From Owenia fusiformis (Eukaryota > Annelida > Polychaeta > Sabellida > Oweniidae): DNA of 64,000 bases. Below, piece by piece: positions 1,968 to 37,329 of the stretch. The DNA lies in assembly GCA_903813345.2 (NCBI GenBank), contig CAIIXF020000002.1, forward strand, positions 18,240,813 through 18,304,812. Direction: 5' to 3'. Positions within the stretch are counted from its first letter, which is position 1; the number at the start of each line of letters is the position of its first letter. A program made the position numbers and the translations under genes. The notes beneath the pieces are model-generated. The model made no database searches and had not been told where the DNA came from. It was given only the letters and a program-made list of their open reading frames with translations.

Positions 1968-2559
1968 ACAACTGAATTGCCAAATGAATTGGCGCAATGC
2001 ATGGCAAAATATATTAGGTCATCTAGGATTTTTTTTAAACTGATACCCTTCTAAGATACGAGATCTATTAAAAAAGGCGCATCATCACCAACGTGCAAAA
2101 GTCAATGATGGAGGGGGATCACGTGTATATAAGACATGATAAGACATGCTACTTGAATTTATTTATACTCCAAATTTTCCCATTTTTCATTCTCCAGAGA
2201 TATAATATCCACAAAATAATGACTGCATCGATTTCATTTAAGCTGACGTTGTACTTAACAGGAAATGACAGAACAGGAGGTGACAAAACCATGCTGGATT
2301 TCAAACATTTTTTGAACTAAGATAACAGAGTTCTGTTTTGACCTCCAGTCTGTGTACAATGTACATGGTCAGAATGACCCTTATCATGATGAAACAACTT
2401 TTTCAGCCTTCTGAAAATGTCACTGAAAAATAGCTAAAGGAAGGAGCTTAAGAAACGTCACTGAACAGAATCTTTTGAATTTTTCAGAAAATGTGCCCAA
2501 TAAATTGCTCTTGAAAAAAAAGAACTGGAATAGTACTGGAAGTAGCCACCTGCTAATGG
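1968..2559. other. no gene recognised
   Basis: A 75-codon open run at 2093-2320 (+) has no recognisable motif, no splice context and no conserved copy. I treat it as chance. The right part grades into the tandem-unit sequence that follows. Confidence 0.45.
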
Positions 2560-2614
2560 GATGCAAGTGATTGCAAGAGATAAACTGGTCAAAATGCGAC
2601 ATCTATGGTACATG

Positions 2615-2692
2615 TAAGTCCAAGTTCCTCCACCAAAGAATATGGGTTGGCCAACAAAAGTCCACCAGTAAATATCAAACTGGGAGGCGCCC
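2615..2692 (-). pseudogene. exon-like segment W, copy 1 (3' truncated)
   Basis: Matches the 81-nt W segments at 4770-4850, 10825-10905 and 36678-36758. The acceptor TAG and the frame reading SQFDIYWWTF, then GQPI, then FFGGGTWT are kept. The donor is lost because copy 1 is fused to other unit sequence. The FGGGT end resembles the FGxGT motif of Ig J-type strands only superficially, so no function is assigned. Confidence 0.45.
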
Positions 2693-2697
2693 CTACC

Positions 2698-3171
2698 CAC
2701 TGGTGATCCGCTCGATTACGCTTATTACCGAAACGGCTCGTTTTGGTAACAAAATGTCGGAACGTCGAAGGTACGATTTTTCTTTTTTCTCTATTTCACG
2801 CGTTGTAGGCAGAATCCCCAGGACGTTTTTTCCCACAAACGTGTATCAGCATCATGTTTTAGAAAATGTAAATGTTTGCGAAAAAATAGCTCAGAAGACA
2901 ACAGAATCGCCGATTTAATTCCTCACTTAAGTTACATTAACGGTTTGGGTTAAAAGTGCAGATCTTAACTGTTTTTGAAAAACCGTTTATGTAACTTAAG
3001 TGAGGAATTAAATCGACGATTCTGTCGTCTTCTGAACTATTTGTTCGCAAATATTTACATTTTCTTAAACATATGATACTGATGTCGTTGGAATTCTGCC
3101 TACAACGTGTGAAATAAGGAAAAAAGAAAAATCGTACCTTCGATGTTCCGACATTGAGTGGATCACCAGTG
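2698..3171. mobile_element. 474-bp foldback MITE with ~200-bp arms
   Basis: Almost the whole element is one inverted repeat. CACTGGTGATCC at 2698 pairs with GGATCACCAGTG ending at 3171, and the arms continue through TCGTACCTTCGATGTTCC-type sequence to a centre near 2960. The left arm has an extra ~40 bp. CTACC flanks both ends (2693-2697 and 3172-3176) as a 5-bp TSD. The uninterrupted site is visible in the sister units near 4851 and 10906. Confidence 0.85.
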
Positions 3172-3207
3172 CTACCCCTATGCAAAACCAGGAAAAGAAT
3201 ACTTGAA

Positions 3208-3297
3208 TTAGGTAACAGGAACGTCGGTTGTAGTCATAAATGGCACGCAGCTGTTGTCGCCGTTGTGTCGTTGGTCATCGGGCTCCTCATCTCCAAG
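3208..3297 (-). pseudogene. exon-like segment B, copy 1 (C-terminal exon)
   Basis: After the acceptor TTTTCAG, 29 codons and TAA follow: LGDEEPDD, then RHNGDNSCVPF and MTTTDVPVT-stop. The phase-0 start matches the phase-0 end of segment A; the intervening intron would be only 65 bp. Copies at 4887-4976 and 10942-11031 have exactly the same length and stop. Differences include synonymous GAC/GAT changes, which supports past selection on this frame. Family unknown. Confidence 0.5.
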
Positions 3298-3362
3298 CTG
3301 AAAATGAACCGGAAAATAGACGAACTGAACTTATGTAATAACTAAATAAAAAATGTTCTTAC

Positions 3363-3509
3363 TTTGGTGCTTTGGTGACAGGAACACGAAGACCTCTCGC
3401 CCATGATATTGTTTACGTCGACTGGACCTGATGGCTCAAAGTTGTCAAAAAACTGATCCAGCTGTCGCCTTAACTTGGTGTGTTCGTTGCATCTCTCTCA
3501 TAGTTGTAC
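3363..3509 (-). pseudogene. exon-like segment A, copy 1 (in-frame stop)
   Basis: 147 nt bounded by TATCTTTCAG and GTAAGA, phase 0 to 0. It reads VQL-stop-ERCNEHTKLRRQ, then LDQFFDNFEPSGPV and GERSSCSCHQSTK. The fourth codon is TGA here, but TGC in the fragment at 41491, giving a CxxC there. Splice signals and most of the frame remain, so the copy looks recently disabled. The protein is not recognised. Confidence 0.5.
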
Positions 3510-3589
3510 CTGAAAGATACAAGATAGGAAAATGAAAAATACAAGTATAAAACAAGCAGATGTAATGTAGCTCTGTAAAAGAATGGAGT

Positions 3590-3695
3590 AGTGGAGTATA
3601 TATTTTTTAAGAATAAATTGAAATTTGGTGTTTCGTTTTTCAAAGTAGTTGCCATCTTGACTTGGCCCAATGTGAAGAAGTAATGATTCAGGCAA
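3590..3695 (-). pseudogene. exon-like segment P, copy 1 (frameshifted)
   Basis: Reads PESLLLHIGPSQDGNYFEKR then NTKFQFILK. Compared with the copy at 11300-11443 it lacks 4 nt after the ILK codons, which shifts the downstream frame. Family not recognised. Confidence 0.4.
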
Positions 3696-3744
3696 CTATC
3701 ATTACTGAGTAGTGAATCATTACTGAGTAAGTATTGGTCAACGA

Positions 3745-3796
3745 AATACAATACAATTCAAAACAATACAATACAATACAATACAAAACAATACTA
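3745..3796. repeat. (ACAAT)n-like microsatellite
   Basis: Imperfect run of AATACAATACAA units. Absent from the corresponding position of the other units (for example near 9830). Confidence 0.75.
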
Positions 3797-3824
3797 AGCA
3801 CTATATCCATGATCTTGGTCATCT

Positions 3825-4085
3825 TGTTCGTTGGTTGTCTGGTTAGTTGGTTGTTTGGTTCGTCGGATGGAGTGTTGGTTAGTTGATTGATTAATTAGTT
3901 AATTGGTTGGTTAGTTTCAACCTATTGGGTGGTCTGGTGGTTGTCTGGTTGGTTAGTTTACGTTGGTAAGAAGTAAGTTGGTTGGTTAAATTAAGCCTAC
4001 AGTATTTGGTCATTTGTTGGTCGGTTGGATGTATGGTTGGTTGGTTGGTTCTATGATTGGTTGGTTGGTTGTCTGGTTGTTTGGC
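3825..4085. repeat. TTGG-rich simple repeat in the tandem unit
   Basis: Long irregular run of GGTTGGTTGGTT/TTAGTTGG on the plus strand. It recurs at 9855-10135 at the same place in the next unit, so it belongs to the duplicated unit. Minus-strand open frames here are simple-repeat (Q/P/T/N-rich) and are not genes. Confidence 0.85.
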
Positions 4086-4186
4086 ACCTCCCCCCTCCTC
4101 TAGAGTGATGACTTCCCAAAAACTTGAATTAAGCAACCACGTCCACAATCATAAGACCCCCATCGCTCCATCAAATTCAACTAAAT

Positions 4187-4388
4187 AAAAGAGACCCTCC
4201 AATGAAATTAAACTGGAACGGTACTGGAAGTAGCCCCCCCCCACACAGACTATTGAGTGATTACCTTCCAAAAAACTTGAATTAAGCAACCCAAGCTAAA
4301 ATCTAAAATACCACAGCTCAAACAAACAAAAAATGACTTGAGACCCCCCAATAAAAGTAGAACTGGAACAGTACTGGAAGTAGCCCCC
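4187..4388. repeat. two ~150-bp internal repeats in the unit spacer
   Basis: The string AACTGGAACGGTACTGGAAG recurs ~150 bp later with few changes, followed by GTAGCCCCC each time. Further copies are at 10257-10435 and near 2521-2555. These are spacer repeats with no coding evidence. Confidence 0.6.
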
Positions 4389-4471
4389 TGCTAATGGGAT
4401 GCAAGTGATTGCAAGAGATGAAATGGTTAAACTGCGACATCTATAGTACATGTAAGTCCTGAGAACTCGAC

Positions 4472-4539
4472 CTAGTCCTCTCGTGGAGAAAATGTGATTT
4501 CAACAGGACCGTCTTTTCGCAGTGACTTCACCATCTGTG
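4472..4539 (-). pseudogene. exon-like segment C, copy 2
   Basis: After an acceptor-like TTTGTAG, two bases and 21 codons lead to TAG: QMVKSLRKDGPVEITF, then SPRED-stop. The copy at 10521-10588 has the same length. The copy at 11678-11735 reads QMVDSLRKDGPVEITFCS with a donor (GTACTG) in place of the stop. TCA/TCT and ATC/ATT synonymous changes between copies favour this frame. Whether the stop or the spliced form is original is unclear. Confidence 0.45.
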
Positions 4540-4769
4540 CTACAAATAGATAAAAACATGTTGTAGTACAGTAATTGTTATTTTACCTAAAACTTTACAT
4601 TAAACTTTACAATTTACTTTAAAAAACTTAATACACTACTAAACATTTACAGAATATTACAAAAGTTAAAATTTTCTCCCAATTCGATATAAACCAGTAG
4701 ACTTCCATATCTCTGATTTTGGAACATGAACTCTATCCCAGAAACCCAAACACCACCCTCCCACTTTAC

Positions 4770-4850
4770 CTTAGAGTCCAAAATCCTCCACCAAAGACTA
4801 TGGGTTGGCCGGCAAAAGTCCACCAGTAAATATCAAACTGGGAGGTGCCC
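4770..4850 (-). pseudogene. exon-like segment W, copy 2
   Basis: 81 nt between TAG acceptor and GTAAAG donor (frame: 1 base, 26 codons, 2 bases). Reads TSQFDIYWWTFAGQPI then VFGGGFWTL. Across the four copies, third-position changes (GTT/GTC, GGC/GGT, TCC/TCT) concentrate in this frame. Its end phase does not fit segment C directly, so an exon may be missing or the boundaries differ. Confidence 0.45.
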
Positions 4851-4886
4851 CTACACGTATGCAAAACCAGGAAAGGAATACTTAAC

Positions 4887-4976
4887 TTAGGTAACAGGAA
4901 CGTCGGTTGTAGTCATAAATGGCACGCAGCTGTTGTCGCCGTTGTGTCGTTCGTCATCGGGCTCCTCATCTCCAAG
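4887..4976 (-). pseudogene. exon-like segment B, copy 2
   Basis: 90 nt: 29 codons from LGDEEPDDERHNGDNSCVPF to DVPVT plus TAA, after TTTTCAG. Intact frame; see the copy at 3208-3297. Confidence 0.5.
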
Positions 4977-5040
4977 CTGAAAATGAACCTGAAAATAGAC
5001 GAACTGAACTTATGTAATAATTGAATAAAAATGTACTTAT

Positions 5041-5191
5041 TTTGGTGCTTTGGTGACAGGAACACGAAGACCTCTCGCCCATGATACTGTAACAGTTTAC
5101 GTGGACTGGACCTCCTGGCTCAAAGTTGTCGAAAAACTGATCCAGCTGTCGCATTAACTTGGTGTGTTTGTTGCATCTCTCATAGTTGTAC
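5041..5191 (-). pseudogene. exon-like segment A, copy 2 (donor lost, frame damaged)
   Basis: Same segment as 3363-3509, but the donor GTAAGA is changed to ATAAGT and small indels (extra bases around the GPVHVN codons) break the frame. The run RQLDQFFDNFEP and GERSSCSCHQSTK is still readable. Confidence 0.45.
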
Positions 5192-5255
5192 CTGAAAGAT
5201 ACAAGAAAATGAAAAATACAACTAGGCTATACAACAAGCAGATGTAATGTAGCTC

Positions 5256-5275
5256 TGTATGTATGTATGTATGTA
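5256..5275 (-). repeat. LINE 3' microsatellite tail
   Basis: TGTATGTATGTATGTATGTA on the plus strand, i.e. ATAC repeats at the 3' end of the element, a style of tail common in CR1/L2/RTE-like LINEs. Confidence 0.8.
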
Positions 5276-5394
5276 TATCTTTATTGCCCTTTATGAAAAG
5301 GAGATACATGTATACAGTGTACAATGAAAATAATGCTGATATAACATAAATGTTAAATGAACATAGAATAAAAAATATATACAATATATAAAAC

Positions 5395-6010
5395 ACACTT
5401 TATACGACTACGTTAGATGAGTGCTAACCATCTTCCCCAAGGTCGATGTAAGCATCTCATCTAACGAACCACAGACGATATAAGATGCTACCGCTATCTC
5501 ATCGTCCAATTACAACCCTCAATGAGATCATTTGTGCAGAGAGCATAATTGAAAAAGTAAAAAAGGTTAGGTTAAGAAAGGTTAAGTATGTACATACAAT
5601 TTTATACATTATATAATACACTTATCTCATTAGTTGAGTGCAAACCATCTTCCCCAAGGTCGATGTAAGCATCTCATCCACTGAACCACAGACGATATAA
5701 GATGCTACCGCTATCTCATCGTCCAATTACAACCCTTAATGAGATCATTTTGTGCAGAGATCATAATTGAAAAAGTAAAAAAGGTTAAGTATGTACAAAC
5801 ATTTTATACATTATATAATACACTTATCTCATTAGTTGAGTGCAAACCATCTTCCCCAAGGTCGATGTAAGCAACTCATCCAATGAACCACAGACGATAT
5901 AAGATGCTACCGCTACCTCATCGTCCAATTACAACCATTTGAGAGATCATTTGTTCAGAGATCACAATTGACAGTAGATATAGATTAAGTATGTACATAT
6001 GGTTTATACC
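5395..6010 (-). repeat. three ~200-bp tandem repeats in the LINE 3' region
   Basis: Units begin near 5395, 5619 and 5821. Each contains CCATCTTCCCCAAGGTCGAT, CCACAGACGATATAAGATGC and CATCGTCCAATTACAACC, followed by an AT-rich segment. Copies 2 and 3 are closest. They lie between the LINE stop codon and its tail, so they belong to the element's 3' untranslated region. Confidence 0.85.
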
Positions 6011-6115
6011 TTATGTATATAAAATATATAGATAGATATAAAATACTTGACGCATTAATCAACAGATTTTAACCCATGGTTTGCATTAAAACGCATCCGA
6101 AATTATATAAGTCAG

Positions 6116-7234
6116 TTATGAGTTGCATTGCAAGCACGAAGCACGGAGGTGGTATTGCTCTTGCACGATAAGTGAAACCCCTCTCAAAAAATCTAAAGAC
6201 CGGGGATCATTTCTAAAGTTAATCCCTAAAATGTTGTTAATATTCATCTCTATACCAAACTTTTGGCAGTGCTCATTCAGTTTACGTCTAAACGGGGTAT
6301 AACTATTTGCTGTGCACGTTAACATAAAATGGATGACATTTTCCTGTTGAAACGTATTACACATATAACATAATTTTGACTTGTTTTCTCCGCCTCGATA
6401 TTTTGTTCCTAGAGTATGTTCGTTTGTCAGAAGTTTGACCATAATTTTGCAACCACCGAGGGCAACAGGGAACTTTCTGGCAACACACCACCATATACTT
6501 GGACTCAAAGACCTAAAATCATTCAACCTAAATAGTTCTAGACCAGTATACATAATTGATCTAACAAACGTCCTCTGTATTTGTGCTGTCGAAAGTTCTG
6601 TAAAAACAATTTTCTTCCACCTTTGTTTGGTGATTCGAGTTTTACAGTATAGCATATCGAGAATGTATTTATCCAAGTTGTATTTTATAGCACATATGAG
6701 CATGTTACGGATAGGAGAAAACACATCAAAATTTGTTTTCATATACGACAATTTTATCAACCGTATCGTGAATATGTGTTTGTAAATATTTGAGCAACGG
6801 AGTTGTAAAATACTAAAGAAAAACATCATTCGGAGGAAATCTATGTAAAAGTCTATATCAAGTAACCCAAGAGGAAATGTTGAGACTGGATTGCTAGCAG
6901 ATTGGGAAAGGGATTGAATCCTCCGTCCAATGCCTCTCTGTACTATGTTTAATTGTTCAATATCTTTTTGATGATAATTGATTACCGGAGCACCGTATGT
7001 CATACAGGGTATGGAATAAGTTTTGTATATCTGACATGCTGAAGTGGGAATAAGGCCTCCGCATTTACTTCCAATTCCCAGAAGGGCATTAAATTGAGAT
7101 TTTCCTTTTTTGCATTTATCATTTACATAATTACTGATGTCATTATCTACAGACAGTGGAATACCAACGTGTTTAGCATAATTAGATTTTTCGATCGGTA
7201 CACCTCCAATGTTTAGCTTTTGAGTGGCTCCCAA
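6116..7234 (-). CDS. LINE ORF2 C-terminal part (RT thumb, Cys-His motif)
   Basis: 372 codons in the same frame as the upstream 793-codon segment; only the TGA at 7265-7267 and ten further sense codons separate them. This part covers the region after the reverse transcriptase palm/thumb. About residue 290-308 it has a zinc-binding-like C-x2-C...H...C motif (LCYMCNTF, then VIHFMLTC), usual near the C-terminus of LINE ORF2 proteins. Its apparent Met start is internal, so it is unlikely to be a separate gene. It ends at TAA near 6116, before the 3' tandem repeats. Confidence 0.85.
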   Translation of the reverse strand: MGATQKLNIGGVPIEKSNYAKHVGIPLSVDNDISNYVNDKCKKGKSQFNALLGIGSKCGGLIPTSACQIYKTYSIPCMTYGAPVINYHQKDIEQLNIVQRGIGRRIQSLSQSASNPVSTFPLGLLDIDFYIDFLRMMFFFSILQLRCSNIYKHIFTIRLIKLSYMKTNFDVFSPIRNMLICAIKYNLDKYILDMLYCKTRITKQRWKKIVFTELSTAQIQRTFVRSIMYTGLELFRLNDFRSLSPSIWWCVARKFPVALGGCKIMVKLLTNEHTLGTKYRGGENKSKLCYMCNTFQQENVIHFMLTCTANSYTPFRRKLNEHCQKFGIEMNINNILGINFRNDPRSLDFLRGVSLIVQEQYHLRASCLQCNS

Positions 7235-7264
7235 TTCGATTTTACTGTTAAAAACAAGATATGT

Positions 7265-9646
7265 TCACTTTTGTGGGTGTACTTCATATCTCCATTGATT
7301 GCTATGTTTAGTAAGTGCGTCCAATAGGACTTGCATAATTTGAAATGAGTTTGATAGGATACACATGTCATCAGCGTAGCATGGACTGACACAGCTGGTG
7401 TCTCCTATGGTGGACCCGATACTTAGTTTAGTCATGGTTTCAATTATGTCAGACATGTATAATTGATAGAAGAGCATTGACAGCACGCCACCTTGATGTA
7501 CACCTTGGAGAATAGGAAATGAATTTGAGCGCGCACCACCTACTAGAACTGCGCACCTATAATGTTTATATAAATTGTACAATATGTTCCAAAGTTTTCC
7601 AACAACGCCACTTTTGTGGAGCTTAAAAAATAGACCATCTATCCAAACAGAGTCGAAGGCTTTGCGAATGTCTGTTATTGTAATGACTACCATTTTACCC
7701 TGTTCAACATTATCTGAAATAGTCTCCTGCACCAATAAGGAAGTGTGAACAGATGAACATTTTTCAACCGATGCCCCTTGTAACTTTGGTATCATTTTGT
7801 AGATCGGAACTTTCAAGTAAGTTAATAATATATTGTCAAAGAGTTTACGAAACATTGTCATGAGGGTTATTCCTCTAGAATTATCTTTTATGAGAGGATC
7901 TTTGCCACTTTTTGTGAGAGGGATCATTACGCCTACACAGAAATTATTTGGGATGTGCTCTGATTGAATAATTGAATTAAATAAGAGAGCAATGGATTCA
8001 TACATTTTGCTTCCGGCATATTTTAAATGTTCAGCACTGATTTGGTCATAGCCACAAGCACGCTTACAGTGAAGTGCTTTAACTGCACTGGTGACATCTT
8101 CATCGCTAATGCTTACTGCCATACCATCAATTTTGTCATCCTCGTTACATTTAATAATTGTTCTGATTTTGTTCTCAATGGTGGTTTTAAACTCAGAATC
8201 GAAATTTGGCTTATTAAGTGGGGTGGCAAGTTTCTCAAAATGACATTTCCATTGATTTCTTATCTCGTCGGCGTCTGTTATAAGTATGCCATCGTCTGAC
8301 AAAATAGGACTTACAGATCTCTTTGATGTTCTGCGATGTTTATTAACTAGGTACCAATAGAACCGTTGGTCAGTTTGTTCCGATGTATAGAGTTTTTCTA
8401 GTTCCTGTTTCTCGTACTCAATTTGGGCTGCGTGATAGGTTTTGGAGAATAACTTTTTTGAATCTTTATATTGACTACGCGCTGGATCGGATATATCACG
8501 TGACCTACCCTGAGACACCCATACACGCCATTTTGTCTTTTTATCTTTTGCTAAAACAGTTAAGGTTGAATTCCAGAACGGCTTTACATATTTCAAAAAT
8601 CTCTTTTTTGGTATATGGGCGTTAGAGGTAAGTGTCAAAATATCTAATAATTTATCTATAAAATACTCAATCTCATTGCCATTCAGAGACCTTTTGGACA
8701 TGATAGAATGTAGCTCGGCTACAATATCATTACATTGTAAGTTAATTGAACTAGTGTATGATTCCAAGATATCGTCATTGCTGAGCTTATCCCACGCATA
8801 TCCTATAGGGGCTTGTATACTCGACCGTCTGTTTATCTTAACATCAAAATTTAAAATCGTTAAAATCGGTAGATGATCTGATGTGTTGTCAGGTTCATCT
8901 TCAAACACCTTACAGGTTAGTATATTATTAGCAAGTTGGGAAGAAATAATCACGTGATCAATGTAGCTCACATGTAGTACTTCATTCCTCATCATTTCAA
9001 AAGTGTGGGTTGGACCAGTAGTTATATCCGTCATGTCAATTGCAGTTAAAATGTTCCGCTTCATAAATTCAAACAGATTGTAGCCATTGCTAGATGGATC
9101 TCCGTGTCCCCTACTTCCAGTTAATTGACCTAGATTGCTATTGACATCACCAAGAATAACTACATTGCCATCAATATTTGCTTCTTGAACAAATTGTTCA
9201 AGTGAAAATAAGACATCTTCAAAATTATCTATCACACAGTTTTGTTGTGGCAAATACACTGAAAATATGTACAAGGGCGAGTCTACCACGACCGATACCT
9301 TTAAGCAAACAATTCTATCGGTACACATTTTCTTAACGGGTATAATATAATTATCCAATGATTTGCGCCAAAATATAGCTACACCACCATTGCCCCATAC
9401 TTTCCCGCTATTAAAATCATTTAAAGATTTGCTACTGGAGCTACAACAATTAAAATCAGGATGGACGGAGTCCAACTTAAATCTATTACAATTGTAAAGT
9501 TTATGCTCGGAGAGAGCCATTATATCACATTGTGATAGCAGAGAATTAATATATAGTGACGATACGTTTAAACCTCTGCAGTTCCATTGTATGAGTCTTA
9601 AATCATTATTTGATAGAACATTTTGGGAAGTGTTGATTGCATTCAT
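7265..9646 (-). CDS. LINE ORF2: apurinic-type endonuclease + reverse transcriptase
   Basis: 793 residues up to a premature TGA. The N-terminal endonuclease/exonuclease/phosphatase domain (about 15-265) has N22 in QWNCRG, E47 in SEHKL, D167/N169 in GDVNSN, D230 in SYIDH and the terminal SDH at 256-258. The reverse transcriptase spans about 560-793: TDIRKAFDSV (first D, residue 659), QGVHQGGVLS (714-723) and YADD (757-760). All catalytic residues expected for target-primed reverse transcription are present. The frame stays open upstream of Met1 towards 9700, so the true start may be lost or further upstream. The clade (CR1/Jockey/L2-like) is inference. Confidence 0.95.
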   Translation of the reverse strand: MNAINTSQNVLSNNDLRLIQWNCRGLNVSSLYINSLLSQCDIMALSEHKLYNCNRFKLDSVHPDFNCCSSSSKSLNDFNSGKVWGNGGVAIFWRKSLDNYIIPVKKMCTDRIVCLKVSVVVDSPLYIFSVYLPQQNCVIDNFEDVLFSLEQFVQEANIDGNVVILGDVNSNLGQLTGSRGHGDPSSNGYNLFEFMKRNILTAIDMTDITTGPTHTFEMMRNEVLHVSYIDHVIISSQLANNILTCKVFEDEPDNTSDHLPILTILNFDVKINRRSSIQAPIGYAWDKLSNDDILESYTSSINLQCNDIVAELHSIMSKRSLNGNEIEYFIDKLLDILTLTSNAHIPKKRFLKYVKPFWNSTLTVLAKDKKTKWRVWVSQGRSRDISDPARSQYKDSKKLFSKTYHAAQIEYEKQELEKLYTSEQTDQRFYWYLVNKHRRTSKRSVSPILSDDGILITDADEIRNQWKCHFEKLATPLNKPNFDSEFKTTIENKIRTIIKCNEDDKIDGMAVSISDEDVTSAVKALHCKRACGYDQISAEHLKYAGSKMYESIALLFNSIIQSEHIPNNFCVGVMIPLTKSGKDPLIKDNSRGITLMTMFRKLFDNILLTYLKVPIYKMIPKLQGASVEKCSSVHTSLLVQETISDNVEQGKMVVITITDIRKAFDSVWIDGLFFKLHKSGVVGKLWNILYNLYKHYRCAVLVGGARSNSFPILQGVHQGGVLSMLFYQLYMSDIIETMTKLSIGSTIGDTSCVSPCYADDMCILSNSFQIMQVLLDALTKHSNQWRYEVHPQK

Positions 9647-9719
9647 ATGGGAAGTAAAAATATTTATATGGGCAAGAAAATAAAATAGCAGGAAACACAG
9701 ATGTAGAAAGAATGGAGTA

Positions 9720-9828
9720 GTGGAGTATATACATATTCTTTAAGAATAAATTGAATTTTGGTGTTTCGTATTTCAAAGCAGTTACCATCTTGACTTGGCC
9801 CAATGTGAAGTAGGAATGATTCAGGCAA
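9720..9828 (-). pseudogene. exon-like segment P, copy 2 (split by LINE)
   Basis: The portion of P left of the insertion in transcription order. It encodes PES-LLHIGPSQDG-type sequence; the remainder is at 5230-5259 on the other side of the LINE. See 11300-11443 for the uninterrupted copy. Confidence 0.5.
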
Positions 9829-9854
9829 CTATATAAGCACTAGATCCATGATCT

Positions 9855-10135
9855 TGGTCATCTTGTTCGTTGGTTGTCTGGTTAGTTGGTTGTTTGGTTC
9901 GTCAGATGAAGTGTTGGTTAGTTGATTGATTAATTAGTTAATTGGTTGGTTAGTTTTAACCTATTGGTTGGTCTGGTGGTTGTCTGGTTGGTTAGTTTGT
10001 TGGTTAGTAAGTTGGTTGGTTAGATTAAGCCTACAGTATTTGGTCATTTGTTGGTCGGTTGGATGTCTGGTTGGTCGGTTGGTTGGTTGGTTGGTTCTAT
10101 GATTGGTTGGTTGGTTGTCTGGTTGTTTGGCACCT
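9855..10135. repeat. TTGG-rich simple repeat, second copy
   Basis: Counterpart of 3825-4085 in the next tandem unit, slightly expanded (GGTCGGTTGGTTGGTTGG). Confidence 0.85.
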
Positions 10136-10520
10136 CCCCCCTCCTCTAGAGTGATGACTTCCCAAAAACTTGAATTAAGCAACCACGTCCACAATCAAAA
10201 GACCCCCATCACTCCATCAAATCAAACTAAATAAAAGAGACCCTCCAATGAAATTAAACTGGAACGGTACTGGAAGTAGCCCCCTCCTCAACAAACACAC
10301 TTGAGTGATTACCTTCCCAAAAACTTGAATTAAGCAACCCAAGCTAAAATCTAAAATTCCACCGCTCAAACAAACTAAAAAGTGACTTGAGACCCCCCAA
10401 TAAAAGTAGAACTGGAACAATACTGGAAGTAGCCCCCTGCTAATGGGATGCAAGTGATTGCAAGAGATGAAATTGTTAAAATGTGACATCTATGGTACAT
10501 GTAAGTCCTGAGAACTCGAC

Positions 10521-10588
10521 CTAGTCCTCTCGTGGAGAAAATGTGATTTCAACAGGACCGTCTTTTCGCAGTGACTTCACCATCTGTG
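10521..10588 (-). pseudogene. exon-like segment C, copy 3
   Basis: 68 nt, identical in arrangement to 4472-4539: acceptor TAG, QMVKSLRKDGPVEITF, SPRED, TAG stop. Confidence 0.45.
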
Positions 10589-10824
10589 CTACAAATAGAT
10601 AAAAACATGTTGTAGTACAGTAATTGTTATTTTAGCTAAAACTTTACATTAAACTTTACAATTTACTTTAAAAAACTTAAATTTACACTACTAAACATTT
10701 ACAGAATATTACAAAATTTAAAATTTATTTCTCCCAATTCGATATAAACCAGTAGACTTCCATATCTCTGATTTTGGAACATGAACTCTATCCCAGAAAA
10801 CCAACCACCACCCTCCCACTTTAC

Positions 10825-10905
10825 CTTAGAGTACAAGATCCTCCACCAAAGAATATGGGTTGGCCGACAAAAGTCCACCAGTAAATATCAAACTGAGAGG
10901 TGCCC
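10825..10905 (-). pseudogene. exon-like segment W, copy 3
   Basis: 81 nt with TAG acceptor and GTAAAG donor. Reads TSQFDIYWWTFVGQPI then FFGGGSCTL. Confidence 0.45.
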
Positions 10906-10941
10906 CTACACGTATGCAAAACCAGGAAAGGAATACTTAAC

Positions 10942-11031
10942 TTAGGTAACAGGAACATCGGTTGTAGTCATAAATGGCACGCAGTTGTTGTCGCCGTTGT
11001 GTCGTTCATCATCGGGCTCCTCATATCCAAG
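10942..11031 (-). pseudogene. exon-like segment B, copy 3
   Basis: 90 nt, intact 29-codon frame plus TAA. Compared with 4887-4976 it has D to Y and S to N changes and two synonymous GAC/GAT differences. Confidence 0.5.
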
Positions 11032-11095
11032 CTGAAAATGAACCTGAAAATAGACGAACTGAACTCATGTAATAATTGAATAAAAATGTACTTAT

Positions 11096-11246
11096 TTTGG
11101 TGCTTTGGTGACAGGAACACGAAGACCTCTCGCCCATGATACTGTAACAGTTTACGTGGACTGGACGTGATGGCTCAAAGTTGTCGAAAAACTGACCCAG
11201 CTGTCGCATTAACTTGGTGTGTTCGCTTCATCTCTCATAGTTGTAC
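11096..11246 (-). pseudogene. exon-like segment A, copy 3
   Basis: Same segment as 5041-5191, also with the donor changed to ATAAGT and the same small indels, so copies 2 and 3 share a recent ancestor. Readable: RQLGQFFDNFEPSRPV, GERSSCSCHQSTK. Confidence 0.45.
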
Positions 11247-11299
11247 CTGAAAGATACAAGAAAATGAAAAATACAACTAGGCTATACAACAATTGCAAG

Positions 11300-11443
11300 C
11301 AGATGTAATGTAGCTCTGTAGAAAGAATGGAGTAGTGGAGTATATACATAATCTTTAAGAATAAATTGAATTTTGGTGTTTCGTTTTTCAAAGCTGTTAC
11401 CATCTTGACTTGGCCCAATGTGAAGTAGGAATGATTCAGGCAA
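11300..11443 (-). pseudogene. exon-like segment P, copy 3 (longest open version)
   Basis: From an AG at 11444-11445 the frame reads LPESFLLHIGPSQDGNSFEK, NTKIQFILKDYVYTPLLHSF and YRATLHLL without a stop until past 11300. It is the best-preserved copy of P. A possible donor is GTATAT inside the segment; the true 3' boundary is not fixed. No family recognised. Confidence 0.4.
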
Positions 11444-11677
11444 CTATCACAGACCACATGTGAAAAATGAAACATGGCTTCATGGTACATTTGTTCATTA
11501 AATGAAATGAAGGCAGTTATCATTCGGTGTATTTCTTAGAAAAAATGTTTGCCAGACATTCATGTGCCAACAATGGAATTAGAATCTCAACAATTGAAAA
11601 TGTGTCGTTGTGGAATAACCGTACTGAACCAGAGAGCAAAATCATCAAATTATAGAACTGATTTTGTGTTACAGTAC

Positions 11678-11735
11678 CTTGAACAAAATGTAATTTCAAC
11701 AGGACCGTCTTTTCGCAGAGAATCCACCATCTGTG
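11678..11735 (-). pseudogene. exon-like segment C, copy 4 (with donor)
   Basis: 58 nt between a TAG acceptor and GTACTG donor: 2 bases, 18 codons (QMVDSLRKDGPVEITFCS) and 2 bases. It lies at the upstream edge of the tandem units, where sequence changes to that of the 13.7-36-kb array at 11741. Confidence 0.45.
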
Positions 11736-11740
11736 CTACT

Positions 11741-12500
11741 GTAACATCCCCTCAACTCGTTGTGGTAGCGTGGTTAAAAGAGAGGTAAAGGTTATTTGTT
11801 AAAATTATGAATTTTATATTCTATGTTAATTATGGGGGGGGGGTGTAAATCATCTGTCTTTACAAGGATTTTTTGCAAAAGAAAGATGGCGTTCTAATAA
11901 AAATCTCCTCATCTTGATTATACTTGGAATTGTCTCATGAAAGGGGAGATAATATCACCTTAAGAAATATAACACGACAAAATAAATAAAGAAACATATT
12001 TACAGGTGCACATTTTTAAGATATAAAACAAAAACACGAGTTTCATGGTTGGAAATTTGCAATATGAATGCCGGAGTATATGTAAAAGGGATACTGGGCA
12101 ACTTTTGGGCCAGAGCATTATATACATTTCAAGGTAACTTTCATGTTAAATCTCCAATGTCACCAAACATATTATCAAATAGAGTTATAATACTGCAAAA
12201 TCGATTGAAACTCAGGAGATATATCCATTAGCAGCCTTACAGCTGACATCTAAACAGAACACAAACCAAACTTATCAACTGAGGAAAACCTTACGCCGAA
12301 TTACTATACTAACTTTACAAATAAAAGTATTTTACACCTAATACTGATACCAAAATATGATAACATAAATACTCTGAATACAGAAGTTGTGATTAAAGTA
12401 AATTGCTTATAATTAATGCTTATTACAGGATCAGTCTGCACTATTTGCACTTTAATATCAATATGTCATCACTGAAAAGTATGTATCTGGAGACTGGAAT
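11741..12500. repeat. outlying copy of the array's right-hand end
   Basis: Starting at TAACATCCCCTCAACTCGTT the sequence matches 34618-34920 and then, with deletions, 35687-36320 (for example CGAATTAC.ATACTAACTTTA and the following ~120 bp at 12297 and 36097). The same start recurs at 17897, 24026 and 26483. The 22-kb array is thus bracketed by related sequence in direct orientation. Confidence 0.75.
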
Positions 12501-13734
12501 ATTGCTGCATTCTTCTCTGGAACTGCAATATCGAAGTTCAATAGTTCATTCACTGCAGTTTGTTATCTGACATCAATCTTGTCAATGCACCAAATGTTCA
12601 AACTTCATGCATTTGAGATTATTTCTCAGTGTTCTTTAATGCTCGGTAGATTCCCATAAAAATAAATGAGAGGTTGACAGGTCTGTAAATCGTAGTGGTG
12701 AATCTTCAGCTTGCATCTGGTTAAGTTGACATCATCTGGTTAAGTTGACATCTTCTGTTCTGCAACCCTGAAACATCGCTATACTGACTTCCTATCATGA
12801 AATAGCAATATACCAGATAGTAAACCAATAACGGGACAGGGTCACACCATCGGTACATAAGCCAATTTTTTCATATTCTCACAAATATGAATTGATATGA
12901 TATAAGGAACAAAGGACACAACATGTTATCTACATGGGGAATCGAGTTGGTCAACACACTTCCATGGGGATTATGATATCGGTCTTGGGTAATTCGTAAC
13001 ATTAGGATAAATACTACAACATTGGTTTCCAGGTATCTTGGAACATTGGGATTCTCCTATAGGACATCCAATCTTATCGGGGTTCACTTGGACTTTTGGA
13101 TTAATAATGAGATTCTGTTTCATAGAAACAATATGAATATTCAAGTTTCATAAAAACATTTTTATTTGAATTCGATCATCACCACGGGACAAATGGCTCA
13201 ATCTTTTGGAAATATGTGGAATAATGGGACAGCTCGGACTATCAAGCAATACTACTACAGTCTTTATTAGAACATCACTGTGTGGCTTGATCTACTTGAA
13301 TAACATCCACCTTGTTAATTCATTAAGACAAATGTATTACTGTTCCGGGACTGTTTATATTCTATAAGAATATAATATTTACATTATGCAGTTATGTACA
13401 CTATCTCAGGGGCTATTCTAACCAGTCTTAATCACTACCTTGAATTCTTTACCCAAGGCAGCGAAAGTTTTGGGAAAAGTATCCTTTCTACATCGGTAAA
13501 ATTGCTGATTTATAGAGAGACAATGGAATCTGACGGATTTCATGACTATGGCTATCTGAAGGGACCTTATAAGACCGCATGGCCTAACAGTGGAGAACAC
13601 TGCCTAATCATATAGACATTACTACCTTAACTTATAGGCAATAACACACCTGAATTTCGTATCATCGGACCCTTGACTATTCACACAGATCTCATGTGGG
13701 CTGGGATGAGATCTTAAATACTGGTGTAACACCC
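12501..13734. other. no gene recognised
   Basis: Apparently single-copy AT-rich DNA. Open runs at 13394-13615 on both strands have no family motif or splice support. Confidence 0.5.
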
Positions 13735-14047
13735 CAGGGGCAGTGCGCTCCGCATATAAGTGTTGGTAGCGTAGCAAATAAAATAGCACAACTTACTCCC
13801 GGGGGTGCCACGGGTAATCCCCAAATGACGCTCCCTCACTGAAGCCGCCAAACGGGAAAAAGCAAACAGACTAATTGATTTAATTTTAATATCAAATAAT
13901 AGAGCATATAACTTTTATTTACTAAAATTACATGATTTTGCTTGATAATAATGAATTGCAAGAATTAATATGAAATGTAATACAGATCAAGAAGAATTAC
14001 AGATGCGCTAATAGGTGAGAAGGGTGAAGTAGCGCAGATAAATGTAA

Positions 14048-14185
14048 TGTCATGTTGCGACTTCTTAGCCGCTCTCCCGCGGGAGAACTGGCAGCGCTGC
14101 TAGGTTGGATGATTGCTCCTAGTGCGGCTACATTCCCAACGCTTGGCCAAGCGGGAGGGGGTAGCGCAGAAAGACAGCAACATTC
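14048..14185. repeat. GC-rich palindromic core (module 3), first of ten copies
   Basis: About 135 bp, markedly GC-rich against an AT-rich background. Copies start near 14048, 16161, 19228, 20170, 22287, 25121, 28431, 30400, 32259 and 33207. It strings together self-complementary blocks: TCTCCCGCGGGAGA, GCAGCGCTGC, CGCTTGGCCAAGCG and a distal TAGCCGC/GCGGCTA pair enclosing the first two. It could fold as a branched structure with a 7-bp closing stem. It lacks a T-loop, so it is not a tRNA. Function unknown. Confidence 0.75.
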
Positions 14186-14829
14186 CAATACCAGCCATGA
14201 CTTACAAAATGAAATCAAATAATGTAAATTGAATTATCATTTGATAAAGGATACTATATGTAGATGCTCAGTCCAGGATATTGCAGATATGAATTGTTGA
14301 AACTATTTGGTGATTTTAACTTTTCAGAAAACATTGTTCTTTCAAACATAAAATGCATGAAATTACACTGGAATGAATTGAAAGATGATTTGCTTACCAA
14401 AACAATGGGTCATCCAAATAATATCCGAATTATATCCAATTAATGTGATTTAATCCATAAAATTAAGATAAAAGAGAAAACTAAAAACGACATCTTGTCT
14501 CTGCAAAATCCCAGCAGAAGAGACAGTTGGTTCGAACTGAGCATGGAACTAAAATTTTACTGTCATGAATATAATACCTAAATATAATTATTTGACAAAT
14601 CTAACTGAGAAATTGAATTTGCATCTGATAGGTGACTATTGAACCTTCTGTACAGGGCTTTAGAATTAATACCAGGAGTATACAAAATAAATCCGAGACA
14701 GGTTCCAATAATTAATAATATTCAAAGATTTGTCTGAATAAAGTGAGATTATTATAAAATGATGACAAATCTAATATCTTATAAAGAAAAAGTAACGGCA
14801 CAAAAATATTACATTATTGGAAAGTCGTT

Positions 14830-15995
14830 ACAATACAATACATGTGCTCATCAGAATAACCATCTAACAGACAGTCTTAGATGCAAGATATTGCTATCTT
14901 TCATCCTCAAAAGTCACACGTGCAAGATGACTTGTGACATCACTGGTTTATAAACATCAAGAACATGGCAACGGATGCACAATTGCTATAGAGTTATGAG
15001 GTTCCATATCCATCAACCAAAAGGTATGCCATATGTGCAAAGTATTGTTCTGAATTTTCGAATTTGGTGTTGAATTACTGTACTCATACCTTAATATGAG
15101 GCCTAAAATTGTCTGCTGGTTGCCTAGAGACCAATATTCCAGCAGAATTTGATAACCGAATCGAATTTTTCGTACTGCATAGGGCAAACAATGATTTAAA
15201 ATCACTTTCAACCCTTTTGTGTGTATAAGAATGGTCATAAGAGGCCCGTGGAGGGTCCTAAATGAAAGAAAGCCCTCTGAAATTCCGTCAAAATTGCAGG
15301 TTATTTCTTCATTTTTTTGATAAAGTTACATGATTTTGAGGTCCCATATCTCACTGTAATTGCTACAATGTAGCAATTTTTCATGTTTGGGCGAAATGGC
15401 CAAATTTCAGCCAAAATCCTCGGAATATAGGGCCTTTGTCAGATTTAGTCAATGATGCAAAAATGATATTTTCTGCCAAAAAATTTGCAGAGACAAAAAT
15501 CAGTGTGATCTCATAAAACATTAAGGTATGAGGTTCCATATCCATCCGCCAAAAGGTATGACCCCTATATAGTCCATTTAAAAACTTGTGGTTTTGTTCT
15601 AAATAATGCAATAATTGGCTTCTAGGGTACCTAGTATGCCACTATTTGGTATCAAAATAAAGCGGAGGAGTTCAACTTTCATTTGAATTTCGATAATAGC
15701 GATGCAGGTCAAAATAGTTCCGACGTGATCATGTTTACTACGCGTTTGCCCGTCATCTCAGAATTGAAGAATTGTTAGCAAACGCGAGTTACAATAAATT
15801 GACGCTGATATCTCAAAAAGTAGCCTGACTCCCTATGATTTGATGTAGATCAGTCGAACCCCTATATGAACAGGTACATTATTATATATAACACTATGGG
15901 GGGTAAACGTTTTAAAGTTGATCACGAACGCCATATGTGCAAAGTATTTTTCTGAATTTTTGAATTTGGTGTTGGATTACGGTACTCATACCTTA
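14830..15995. repeat. ~1.2-kb block found only in the 6.1-kb duplicates
   Basis: Sister modules run straight from ATTACATTATTGG to GGGTCGTTACACTGG, but here an extra block is inserted. It contains a direct repeat (CATATGTGCAAAGTATT at 15029 and 15930) and an inverted pair (ACTCATACCTTAATATGAGG near 15082 against TTAAGGTATGAGGTTCC near 15522). No coding evidence. It may be a decayed mobile element. Confidence 0.55.
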
Positions 15996-17042
15996 ATGTG
16001 ATTTAATCCATTAAATTAAGTTAGAAGAGAAAACCAAAAAGCTCATCTTGTCTCTGCAAAATCCCAGCAGAAGAGACAGTTGATTCGAACTGAGCATCGA
16101 ACTAAAAGTCACTTTGGAAGGAAAAAGACAAAGGGGGCGCGGCTATCGCGATGGTAATGTCATGTTGCGACTTCTTAGCCGCTCTCCCGGGGGAGAACTG
16201 GCAGCGCTGCTAGGTTGGATGACTGCTCCTAGTGCGGCTACATTCCTAACGCTTGACCAAGCAGGAGGGGTAGCGCAGAAAGACAGCATCTTTCCAATGC
16301 CAGCCATGACTTACAAAATGAAATCACTTAATGTAAATTAAATGATCATTTGATAAAGGATACTCTATGTAGATGCTCGGTCCATGTACTCGAATAAATT
16401 GAAAGATGATTTGCTTACCAAAACAATGGTTTATCAAAATAATATCCGAATTATATCCAATTAATGTGATTTAATCCATAAAAATAAAAGAGAAAACTAA
16501 AAACCACATCTTGTCTCTACAAAATCCCAGCAGAAGAGAAAGTTGGTTCGAACTGAGCATGGAACTAAAATTTTACTAGCATGAATCTAATGGCTAAATA
16601 TTATTACTTGACAAATCTAACTGAGAAATTGAGTTTGCATCTGATAGGGGACTGTTGAACCTACTGTACAGGGCTTTATAATTAATACCAGGATCGGAGT
16701 ATACCAAATAGCTAGATCTGAGACAGGTTCCATTAATTAATAATATTTAAAGATTTGTCTGAATAAAGTGAGATTATTATAAAATGATTACAAATCTAAT
16801 ATCTTATAAAGGTAACGGCACAAAAATATTACATTATTGGTGGGTCGTTACACTGGTATATACATCATATTTCTTATTTAAATAAGAGCACCTGAATACT
16901 CAACTTATCGGGTCGGGTAGGGTCTGGTGTACGCACTGTGGTTAGGACATGTGACATGTTCTGTTGGTGGAGAGACAACAGAATTAGTTATAATTGATGC
17001 CAGGGGTATTGACATCATTGACTATTGGAGATTCGGATACAG

Positions 17043-17370
17043 TTAGCAGTTATGACCCTATCATTGAATATATGCCTGAGGTCTGTCACCAATATAGCCC
17101 GAGCTTGCGAGGGTTATATTACGACAGACCGAAGGCATATATTCAATGATACGGACATAACTGTTGTATAACATACTTTTATATCATGGCTACGTTATAT
17201 CAATGACGCCACGTGTCTGTGTGCGAGTGAAATTAGGAAGAAATGAAACCTGACGTCCCAATGACGTCATAAGATTGTCATGGTAAAAGGTTTGGCGGCT
17301 ATACAGGAATATATAGCCGACCTTCAGCTCCATTGACTTCAATACAAATGCTTCGCTGGGTATGTAATAC
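17043..17370. mobile_element. 328-bp hairpin insertion, copy 1
   Basis: Starts TTAGCAGTTATG and ends GGGTATGTAATAC. The left third is a long hairpin: ATCATTGAATATATGCC pairs with GGCATATATTCAATGAT, around an inner AATATAGCCC/GGGTTATATT stem. A second small hairpin (CGGCTATA/TATAGCCG) lies near 17297-17325. The empty site GATACAGTGTGGAAT survives at 34085 (and in variant form at 25960 and 31151), showing a clean insertion without target duplication. Confidence 0.85.
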
Positions 17371-20266
17371 TGTGGAATATATCACATTTTATGACTGATA
17401 TTATTGGACACAGTCTGTGACGTACTTGGACTTTAAGGTAACATTTACAGGGACGTGCATTGCCTCGTATGGGTGCGGGCGTACCCAAGCTATCTCTCAA
17501 AAGCTCATCATGTCCATCATGACAAACAAAAAAGAGAAACTCACAAACAAGGGATTGACGGGGATATTAATATATCATGATAATTTGTTACAAGGGCCTT
17601 TATGGGCTTCGTTCAAGTATCAGTGGTTTCACTGTAATGGAATAAATGATATGCAAAGTGGGGAAAACATACCATAAGGGTGTATAATGGAGGCGGCCAC
17701 TTTAACAGGAAGTAGGTTTAGAGAAAAACTACTTCATCAATCAAAAGGGACAGTCCCTATGGTAAGCTATGGGGACTGGGTGGACTGAATAGTCTCACTG
17801 TAGGTAACTAAAAACGGACATGGAATCCGGACATGGAAAAATGTGGGTCTCGATAGGGCGGGGCCTATCAAAATTCCGACGCTGCCAGTCAGGGTAACAT
17901 CCTCTCAACTCGTTGTGGTAGCGTGGTTAAAAGAGAGGGAAATCTTATTGGTTAAAATTATGAATTTCATATTCTATGTTAATTATGGGAGGGGGGTGTA
18001 AAGCATCTGTCTTTACAATGAGTCTTATAGGTAATAAACTTTTATGTCAAAAGAAAGATGGCGTTCTGGTAATTATCTCTTCATCTTGATTATACTTGGA
18101 ATTGTCTCATGAAAGGGGGATGATATCACCTTAAGAAATATAACACGACAAAAGTTTGAAATAAAGAAACATATTTATTTCAACACAGACAATATCTTGT
18201 ACATTCCAAAAGTATTCTACCAAAGTGCAGCTCGGGTGATGCAAGCGCACTTTTAAAGGCAAATAACTCTTAGCCTGGATATATGTGAAACAATGCATGA
18301 TTTTCTGCACGCAGGGCATCATATTTCGGCATCATTCCACGAGTTTTCAATCTTCCCTTGATACATATTGTAAGACACATATATCAGCCAGCAAGGTGAA
18401 GATATGAAACACTGCACATGTACATTCATTAAAATACAACTCAATGAAGTACATGTACGCTTGTGGCGCAATCCATTGGCTAACCAATTGAAATTGAAAA
18501 TTTCATTGATTTAGATGTGCATAGTACATAGGTAAATCAAAGTCATTAGCTTCCCAGATATATAATTATATAGTACAAAATGATCAACTTAGCTGCAGTA
18601 TATATGTACATGGTACAAAATGCCCACTAAGCTACTATGTACACAGTACAGAATGGTAAGAATCAGCACATGTGAGTGCGATCCAAATTGACGAATCCTA
18701 AGGCTTACCAATAGCCAAAGGAACCGGCTCTTATGCATGTGACGTGACTAAAATCACCATGTCACAACCATGGGATAATGAAGTGCAATCAAAATGCGCA
18801 TATTGCAGCACAATCAAGGTGTGCTAAAATAAAACAGCTGCACAAATACAAGAGCGGCACTGTGAAGGCGCTTGATGCAACGGCTGCCTGACCAATGTAG
18901 CCCCCCCCCAGGGGCAGTGCACTCTTTGCATATTAGTGGTGGTAGCGTAGCAAATAAAATAGCACAGCTTACTCCTGGGGGTGCCACGGGTAATCCCCAA
19001 ATGACGCTTCCTCACTGAAGCCGCCAAACGGGAAAAAGAAAACAGACTAATTAATTTAATTTTAATATCAAATAATAGAGCATATAATTTATTATTTACT
19101 AAAATTACATGATTTTGCTTGATAATAATGAAATAAATTGCAAGAACTAATATGAAATGTAATACAGATCAAGGAGAATTACAGATGCGCTAATAGGTGA
19201 GAAGGTTAAAGGAGCGCAGATAAATAAAATGACATGTTGCGACTTCTTAGCCGCTCTCCCGGGGGAGAACTGGCAGCGCTGCTAGGTTGGATGATTGCTC
19301 CTAGTGCGGCTACATTCCCAACGCTTGGCCAAACGGGAGGGGGTAGCGCAGAAAGACAGCAACATTCCAATGCCAGTCATGACTTACAAAATGAAATCAA
19401 TTAATGTCAATTAAATGATCATTTGATAAAGGATACTATATGTAGATGCTCAGTCCAGGATATTGCAGATATGAATTGTTGAAACTATTTGGTGATTTTT
19501 AGTTTTGAATTGAAAGATGATTTGCTTACCAAAATGCTTAATCCAAATAATATCCGAATTATATCCAATATCCCAGATGCGAGTAGAAATAAGCTTGATT
19601 TACGTCATTAAAAATTCACAATTCAGTCAAACTGATGTCATATTTGGAATCTACATGTCAAATTACATTTAGAAATGTGGTTTTGAAAAGAGTTTATCAT
19701 CTTTGAAAATTTAATTTTTGAAAATGTGACTTCTAGGTCGGGGAGATTCCCCATAGACCCCATGTTGTGAAACCACAAAAAGGGAAATATCTTTCTTGTG
19801 CTGGGCAGATAATATTTTCTTTTACTGGACATATTTTAATTTGTATAACCATCAGATACATAGGGGTAATATGAAAAGTGAACCACTAAAACTGGTGCAT
19901 ATTCAAGTTTAAGGGAATTTTTTAATACCCTGCTATGTTACTTCCCCCGAATCAGCCACCTGGTGGCGAAACTGGTAACTACCTACTCGCATCTGAGTAA
20001 TTAATGTGATTTAATCCATAAAATTAAGATAAAAGAGAAAACTTAAAACCACATCTTGTCTCTGCAAAATCCCAGCAGAAGAGACAGTTGGTTCGAACTG
20101 AACATGGAACTAAAATTTTACTGGCATGAATCTAATAGCTTAATATAATTACTTGACAAATCTAACTGAGAAATGTCATGTTGCGACTTCTTAGCCGCTC
20201 TCCCGGGTGAGAACTGGCAGCGCTGCTAGGTTTGATGACTGCTCCTAATGCGGCTACATTCCCAAC

Positions 20267-23200: not shown

Positions 23201-25124
23201 AGGTCTGTCACCAATATAGCCCGAGCTTGCGAGGGTTATATTACGACAGACCGAAGGCATATATTCAATGATACGGACATAACTGTTGTATAACATACTT
23301 TTATATCATGGCCACGTTATATCAATGACGCCACGTGTCTGCGTGCGAGTGAAATTAGGAAGAAATGAAACCTGACGTCCCAATGACATCATAAGATTGT
23401 CATGGTAAAAGGTTTGGCGGCTATACAGGAATATATAGCCGACCTTCAGCTCCATTGACTTCAATACAAATGCTTCGCTGGGTATGTAATACTGTGGAAT
23501 ATATCACATTTTATGACTGATATTATTGGACATAGTCTGTGACGTACTTAGACTTTTAGGTAACATTTACAGGGACGTTCATTGCCTCATTGCCTCGTAT
23601 GGGTGCGGGCGTACCCAAGCTATCTCTCAAAAGCTCATCATGTCCATCATGACAAACAAAAAAGAGAAACTCACAAACAAGGGATGGACGGGGATATTAA
23701 TATATCATGATAATTTGTTACAAGGGCCTTTATGGGCTTCGTTCAAGTATCAGTGGTTTCACTGTAATTGAATAAATGATATGCAAAGTGGGGAAAACAT
23801 ACCATAAGGGTGTATAATGGAGGCGGCCACTTTAACAGGAAGTAGGTTTAGAGAAAAACTACTTCATCAATCAAAAGGGACAGTCCCTATGGTAAGCTAT
23901 GGGGACTGGGTGGACTGAATAGTCTCACTGTAGGTAACTAAAAACGGACATGGAATCCGGACATGGAAAAATGTGGGTCTCGATAGGGCGGGGCCTATCA
24001 AAATTCCGACGCTGCCAGTCAGGGTAACATCCTCTCAACTCGTTGTGGTAGCGTGGTTAAAAGAGAGGGAAATCTTATTGGTTAAAATTATGAATTTCAT
24101 ATTCTATGTTAATTATGGGAGGGGGGTGTAAAGCATCTGTCTTTACAATGAGTCTTATAGGTAATAAACTTTTATGTCAAAAGAAAGATGGCGTTCTGGT
24201 AATTATCTCTTCATCTTGATTATACTTGGAATTGTCTCATGAAAGGGGGATGATATCACCTTAAGAAATATAACACGACAAAAGTTTGAAATAAAGAAAC
24301 ATATTTATTTCAACACAGACAATATCATTCCAAAAGTATTCTACCAAAGTGCAGCTCGGGTGATGCAAGCGCACTTTTAAAGGCAAATAACTCTTAGCCT
24401 GGATATATGTGAAACAATGCATGATTTTCTGCACGCAGGGCATCATATTTCGGCATCATTTCACGAGTTTTCAATCTTCCCTTGATACATATTGTAAGAC
24501 ACATATATCAGCCAGCAAGGTGAAGATATGAAACACATGTACATTCATTAAAATACAACTCAATGAAGTACATGTACGCTTGTGGCGCAATCCATTGGCT
24601 AACCAATTGAAATTGAAAATTTCATTGATTTAGATGTGCATAGTACATAGGTAAATCAAAGTCATTAGCTTCCCAGATATATAATTATATAGTACAAAAT
24701 GATCAACTTAGCTGCAGTATATATGTACATGGTACAAAATGCCCACTAAGCTACTATGTACACAGTACAGAATGGTAAGAATCAGCACATGTGAGTGCGA
24801 TCCAAATTGACGAATCCTAAGGCTTACCAATAGCCAAAGGAACCGGCTCTTATGCATGTGGCGTGACTAAAATCACCATGTCACAACCATGGGATAATAA
24901 AGTGCAATCAAAATGCGCATATTGCAGCACAATCAAGGTGTGCTAAAATAAAACAGCTGCACAAATACAAGAGCGGCACTGTGAAGGCGCTTGATGCAAC
25001 GGCTGCCTGACCAATGTAGCCCCCCCCCAGGGGCAGTGCACTCTTTGCATATTAGTGGTAGTAGCGTAGCAAATAAAATAGCACAGCTTACTCCTGGGGG
25101 TGCCACGGGTAATCCCCAAATGAC
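20267..25124. repeat. 4.9-kb segment of the 6.1-kb tandem duplication, copy 2
   Basis: Partner of 14141-19005. Directly after ATCCCCAAATGAC the copy jumps to module 3 at 25121, skipping ~230 bp (module 2) that follows in copy 1, so the right boundary is a deletion or recombination join. Confidence 0.93.
23165..23492. mobile_element. 328-bp hairpin insertion, copy 2
   Basis: Same element and same host position as 17043-17370. It arose by the 6.1-kb duplication, not by an independent insertion. Confidence 0.85.
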
Positions 25125-27039: not shown

Positions 27040-27367
27040 TTAGCAGTTATGTCCCCATCATTGAATATATGCCTAAGGTCTGTCACCAATATAGCCCGAG
27101 CTTGCGAGGGTTATATTACGACAGACCGAAGGCATATATTCAATGATACGGACATAACTGTTGTATTACATACTTTTATATCATGGCTACGTTATATCAA
27201 TGACGCCACGTGTCTGTGTGCAAGTGAAAGTAGGAAGAAATGAAACATGACGTCCCGATGACGTCATAATATTGTCATGGTAAAAGGTTTGGCGGCTATA
27301 CAGGAATATATAGCCGACCTTCAGCTCCATTGACTTCAATACAAATGCTTCGCTGGGTATGTAATAC
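27040..27367. mobile_element. 328-bp hairpin insertion, copy 3 (independent site)
   Basis: Exactly 328 bp again, TTAGCAGTTATG to GTAATAC. The flanks CAACTTTAC and TGGATTGTAGAGCC are contiguous at the empty site near 35172 (CAACTTTACTGGATTGTAAAGCC, in two parts). In this copy the hairpin arms are longer: CAGTTATGTCC also pairs with GGACATAACTG. A different target from copies 1 and 2 proves mobility. Confidence 0.88.
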
Positions 27368-37319: not shown

Positions 37320-37329
37320 CAGATTTGCA

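Follow-up and report, generated by a model that had tools for sequence, protein, structure and literature searches.

Tandem copies of exon-like segments, probably the decayed remains of a spliced gene, in the genome of Owenia fusiformis

Results and discussion

A group of repeat units in a 64,000-nucleotide stretch of Owenia fusiformis DNA, here called the window, is probably made up of tandem duplicates of internal exons of a putative spliced gene that have since decayed. The original prediction of a local graveyard with tandem copies and exon-like borders is supported by self-BLAST, a four-way alignment and the pattern of GC content and splice signals. According to the proposed history, one genomic segment with internal exons on the minus strand (A of ~147 nt, BW of 207 nt, P of ~58 nt and perhaps C) would have been copied head-to-tail four times, giving units a, b, c and d. 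Because the A-B and W-P spacers were duplicated too, the copying would have been of DNA. Decay without detectable constraint would have followed, together with insertions: unit b received a LINE and unit a a palindromic insert, and in unit d there are the 24.7-kb array, a flipped piece between inverted repeats and a 358-bp insert.

Layout of the repeat units

Self-BLAST of positions 2500-12000 against the whole window places units a, b and c in one orientation, with further unit pieces at 36492-36914 (same orientation) and at 41460-41520 plus 41880-42036 (opposite orientation). The exon-like segments repeat in the minus-strand order C-A-BW-P (Table 1). Units b and c share 94.5% identity over ~1.5 kb (3787-5259 vs 9827-11320), and the C region of unit b, 9702-9832, is 97.7% identical to 11317-11447. 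The four-way alignment, in which the pieces of unit d are joined, spans A, the 65-bp spacer between A and BW, BW and the W-P spacer. Repeats were located where three units plus fragments had been proposed, but the units in tandem number four, the fragments being parts of the fourth. Likewise, of the five segments described with AG/GT borders, the repeats and most borders stand, but B and W look like one segment, because no usable donor was seen between them, and all the segments lie on the minus strand. The in-frame indels reported among copies are confirmed by length differences of 6 nt and 9 nt in A and B, both multiples of three. Lesions are not alike from copy to copy, and none of units a-d is intact. 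Beside P of b and c a ~150-bp unit occurs in tandem (4100-4392, 10146-10441), adjoined by GGTT-type simple repeats.

In their head-to-tail arrangement at one locus, with spacers kept and copy-specific lesions, the units resemble the duplicated (unprocessed) pseudogenes of tandem clusters; they differ in holding internal exons only and in that the parent gene is not named. Processed (retro-) pseudogenes are also dead exon copies, but the units do not belong to that class, because intron-like spacers, A-B and W-P, are present in the alignment.

Table 1 Positions in the window of the repeat units, their segments and the insertions
Feature	Position	Strand	Remarks
Unit a	2515..3701	-	A, B, W present; P and W-P spacer lacking; self-BLAST and alignment
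Palindromic insert, MITE-like, inside BW of unit a	2697..3171	.	Ends CACTGGTGATCC
Segment A, unit a	3363..3509	-	147 nt; good acceptor, GT donor; codon 4 is a stop in the HQSTK-ending frame
Unit b, first part	3787..5259	-	Simple repeats, P, W-P spacer, BW, A; self-BLAST
Segment P, unit b	4475..4539	-	Acceptor at 98.5th percentile; poor donor, 51.7th
Segment BW, unit b	4770..4976	-	207 nt
Segment A, unit b	5041..5191	-	One frame open; donor GT lost
LINE retrotransposon in unit b, between C and A	5260..9701	-	Borders from self-BLAST
Unit b, remainder (C region)	9702..9832	-	Self-BLAST
Unit c	9827..11449	-	Most complete of the units; self-BLAST and alignment
Segment P, unit c	10524..10588	-	
Segment BW, unit c	10825..11031	-	207 nt
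Segment A, unit c	11096..11246	-	Stop in HQSTK frame; donor GT lost
Segment P, unit d	11678..11735	-	Own donor, 91st percentile
Array of segmental duplicates (24.7 kb) that breaks unit d next to P	11742..36477	.	Joined flanks align to b and c
Unit d middle, W-P spacer and BW	36492..36914	-	BW at 36678-36879, 202 nt; 83.5% identity to 4549-5010
Inverted-repeat arms around A piece of unit d	40718..40989 and 42040..42312	.	Self-comparison
Segment A, unit d	41491..42005	+ (flipped)	Cut by 358-bp insert

Exon-like borders and composition

Segments A, B, W and P have a GC content of 46-52% (C only 42%) and the spacers one of 25-30%. Strong acceptors and donors stand at most of these composition borders on the minus strand, as would be expected of a spliced gene. 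Ranked among all AG or GT sites of the window by a consensus that is not species-trained, the minus-strand acceptors reach percentiles of 99.8 (A), 90.6-95.4 (BW) and 98.5 (P), and the donors of A in unit a and of the W end both reach 99.0. The donor of P is at the 51.7th percentile in c as in b, against the 91st in d. In A the donor GT is present in a and d (scored in a and seen in d) and is replaced by AT in b and c; of the earlier suggestion that A joins B in phase through a 65-bp intron, the 65-bp spacer is there, but the GT donor that such a junction needs is gone from b and c. Among random 17-nt neighbourhoods, the quality of the A acceptor was reached at a frequency of 0.0019, that of the P acceptor at 0.014, that of a donor matching A (unit a) or W at 0.010 and that of a BW-like acceptor at 0.08; since the copies share ancestry, each border counts as one observation, not four.

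The repeats and the GC/splice pattern exceed chance; the open frames do not. In the rest of the window, beyond the claimed areas, there are 1305 acceptor-donor pairs whose two sites both rank in the top 20%, and 232 of these likewise enclose an open frame. Short open segments are thus common here, and openness of the segments adds nothing. From the GC steps and splice signals we infer that A, BW and P were exons.

The opposite strand was weighed as well. B read on the plus strand is a hydrophobic stretch open in all four units, its peptide matches the four units by tblastn, and one good plus-strand site exists, an acceptor at the 94.9th percentile beside W. However, no acceptor of this strand stands within 8 nt of the border of A, the BW border lacks a plus donor, A has plus-strand stops in every frame and unit, and neither Pfam nor PDB gave anything above threshold. 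A plus-strand gene was rejected on the splice borders and the stops in A, and we regard it as extremely improbable.

A fourth unit in scattered pieces

Judging from how they align, the P segment near 11.7 kb, the BW piece at 36.5 kb and the A piece at 41.5 kb fit together as one fourth unit, d. Positions 11685-11739 are 93% identical over 55 nt to P of b and c (self-BLAST), and when the flank of this P is joined to the right-hand flank of the 24.7-kb array, the product aligns through to b and c. The BW piece (36492-36914) and the A piece (41460-42036) both break inside the A-B spacer and, once joined, align to the other units with little loss. The C region is absent from unit d, and 235 bp beside its P match nothing in any other unit, so that d is only partly reconstructed. 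The ~3.8 kb at 36915-40716, inside d between BW and the first inverted-repeat arm, count against the proposed history.

Inversion by recombination is expected between inverted repeats. The 272-bp arms at the A piece of d are 98.9% identical over 273 aligned columns, and the piece would have been flipped through them. The A segment of d is also interrupted by the 358-bp insert (41521-41878), which is accompanied by a 10-bp duplication, CAGTGAACAC. The region 40716-42825 contains a repeat family in both orientations, its members 80-99% alike, with foldback-like structures.

The array at 11742-36477 is bordered on both sides by TACTG (11737-11741 and 36478-36482), which may be a 5-bp duplication, and its 400-nt ends gave no terminal inverted repeat. 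Its internal copies 14046-19005 and 20172-25124 are 99% identical, and the six frames of 12000-18500 and 28600-29700 gave no Pfam match. The LINE in unit b encodes an endonuclease (Exo_endo_phos_2, 1.7e-11) and a reverse transcriptase (RVT_1, 1.6e-20) by Pfam and is nearly intact, with two long ORFs in the same frame and one in-frame stop between them. In the palindromic insert of unit a, the arms at 2753-3155 pair mutually with 80% identity; its ends and an apparent 5-bp target duplication, CTACC, were read by eye.

Search for identity

None of the 17 unit peptides submitted to Pfam from A, B, W, P and C, many of them overlapping, reached the cut-off of a model. Matches below threshold were to SHLD1_C, TRASH_ZMYM4, DBD_HTH, DUF883_C, DUF3379, DUF2461 and Fe_dep_repress. 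Two of these were considered further. The first, Shieldin subunit 1 (SHLD1_C), has a weak profile match to A together with the first part of B (E = 0.008), but at 16.7 bits against a cut-off of 27, and with BW and P added the E-value becomes 0.03; being below the cut-off and not extending into BW and P, this identity was rejected. The second is a TRASH_ZMYM4 zinc finger, matched over 24 residues by P of d read past its donor (E = 0.001) and by none of five hand-made scrambles. The score is 19.5 bits against a cut-off of 27, only profile positions 10-32 of 42 are covered, and P of b and c gave no match. A MYM/TRASH zinc finger was likewise rejected, the match lying below the cut-off and falling short of a whole finger including the first CxxC; since 17 peptides were tried, many of them overlapping, a single match of such strength should be taken as a lead rather than a finding.

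The unit peptides had no PDB match at E-values up to 10. Two scans of IMG/VR proteins confirmed none of 18 and none of 50 pattern stretches, and two DNA patterns went unmatched; in GTDB contigs 0 of 94 were confirmed and one DNA pattern went unmatched, and phage sequences gave no match to the unit. These absences, like that in PDB, say little because the collections contain few animal sequences, and they are what an animal gene would be expected to give. Rfam at the gathering threshold and ARAGORN returned nothing.

Tests of coding capacity

The protein-coding family first proposed is not shown: the dN/dS of A is 1.04 and 1.08 in minus frames 0 and 1 (1.52 in the third) and stops occur in every frame of A+BW+P taken from one unit. 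A dN/dS near 1 in all frames had been named in the original prediction among the results that would speak against it; A shows such values in minus frames 0 and 1. On coding, and in positing an intact member elsewhere, the original prediction goes beyond what the data show. For B and W the ratios, taken like those of A as pairwise sums over related copies without a confidence interval and here based on few changes, are 0.51, 0.65 and 0.51 for B (frame 0, 0.51) and 0.98, 1.28 and 0.62 for W (frame 2, 0.62), so that weak past constraint may have acted on these two segments. Changes by codon position are even in A (23/21/26; 21/26/23 in minus frame 1) and nearly even in B (15/9/12 in frame 0) and W, with no clear bias. 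The C segment has 4 pairwise differences, all at one position, the third in its frame 0.

The HQSTK-ending frame of A is closed at codon 4 in a and carries a 2-nt length change in b and c, with a stop in c as well; A of b, taken alone, is open. Stops over A+BW+P of a single unit were counted in b (7/4/4 per frame) and c (7/5/4), units a and d having no contiguous set, and neither unit keeps a frame open over all three segments. Shuffles of A+BW+P of b equal its best frame, with 4 stops, at P = 0.38. In a mixture of A from a with BW and P from d, a combination chosen post hoc in which P lacks 2 nt at the 3' end, one frame holds only 2 stops (P = 0.049). The alignment behind the dN/dS analysis includes 3 nt of insert in d and a few duplicated target bases in a, which there add stops to A of d and to BW of a.

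Splice signals in segments where no single unit keeps a frame open through A, BW and P would also suit a gene for a spliced non-coding RNA, or exons that are not translated, as would the lack of codon-position bias in A, B and W. Against this origin, A of b and B of all four units are open in the same frame register, and the mixture, for all that it was a post hoc choice, has only the two stops; we consider it distinctly unlikely.

Evidence for exon-specific constraint, sought by comparing A+BW with the spacers, is mixed. Unit a differs less in A+BW than in the spacers, part of whose alignment is doubtful, from both b (23/352 vs 20/129, p = 0.004) and c (27/352 vs 21/129, p = 0.009). Between b and c the direction is reversed (16/358 in A+BW vs 5/359 in spacers, p = 0.015), and no difference emerges in the three comparisons with unit d (p = 0.14 for a-d, 0.46 for b-d and 0.68 for c-d).

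The equal frequency of differences in segments and spacers in b-d and c-d is in keeping with a repeat or non-autonomous mobile element of no gene ancestry, whose exon-like borders would be fortuitous. The four stops in the best frame of a single unit agree with that origin, as do surroundings rich in insertions and tandem repeats and the lack of a relative in the searched collections. However, the steps in GC content fall at splice sites of a single strand, all copies lie in one locus, and no element ends were found for the unit, without a systematic search. Such an element is an unlikely source of the units, and we favour decayed tandem copies of internal exons.

Other features of the window

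A probable HMMR/RHAMM orthologue lies on the minus strand at 51235-57814, with a Pfam HMMR_C match of 1e-22 at ~51979-52170 and a second of 3.1e-5 at ~51235-51394; its exons may include two coiled-coil ORFs, 53565-54299 and 57137-57814. Two satellites follow, one of 25 bp (18 copies, 58885-59340) and one of 63 bp (16 copies, 59952-60983). On the minus strand the latter matches the Pfam repeat family NPB13-l_MII_rpt (5.4e-14), probably because of its repetitiveness. Microsatellites are also present in the window and, with the LINE and the HMMR_C match, give it the look of animal DNA.

Conclusions

Read as tandem duplicates of internal exons, the units are genomic debris of a common type, a further tandem cluster of dead gene copies, and they illustrate clearly how layered insertions split one unit into pieces 30 kb apart. 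A further and more tentative reading, which we hold to be possible but doubtful, is that they would be what is left at this locus of a spliced gene family, either coding or non-coding and so far undescribed, with no Pfam model and with intact members elsewhere in the genome. Since no segment reaches the Pfam cut-off, the discovery of an intact, expressed parent gene would make the units more important.
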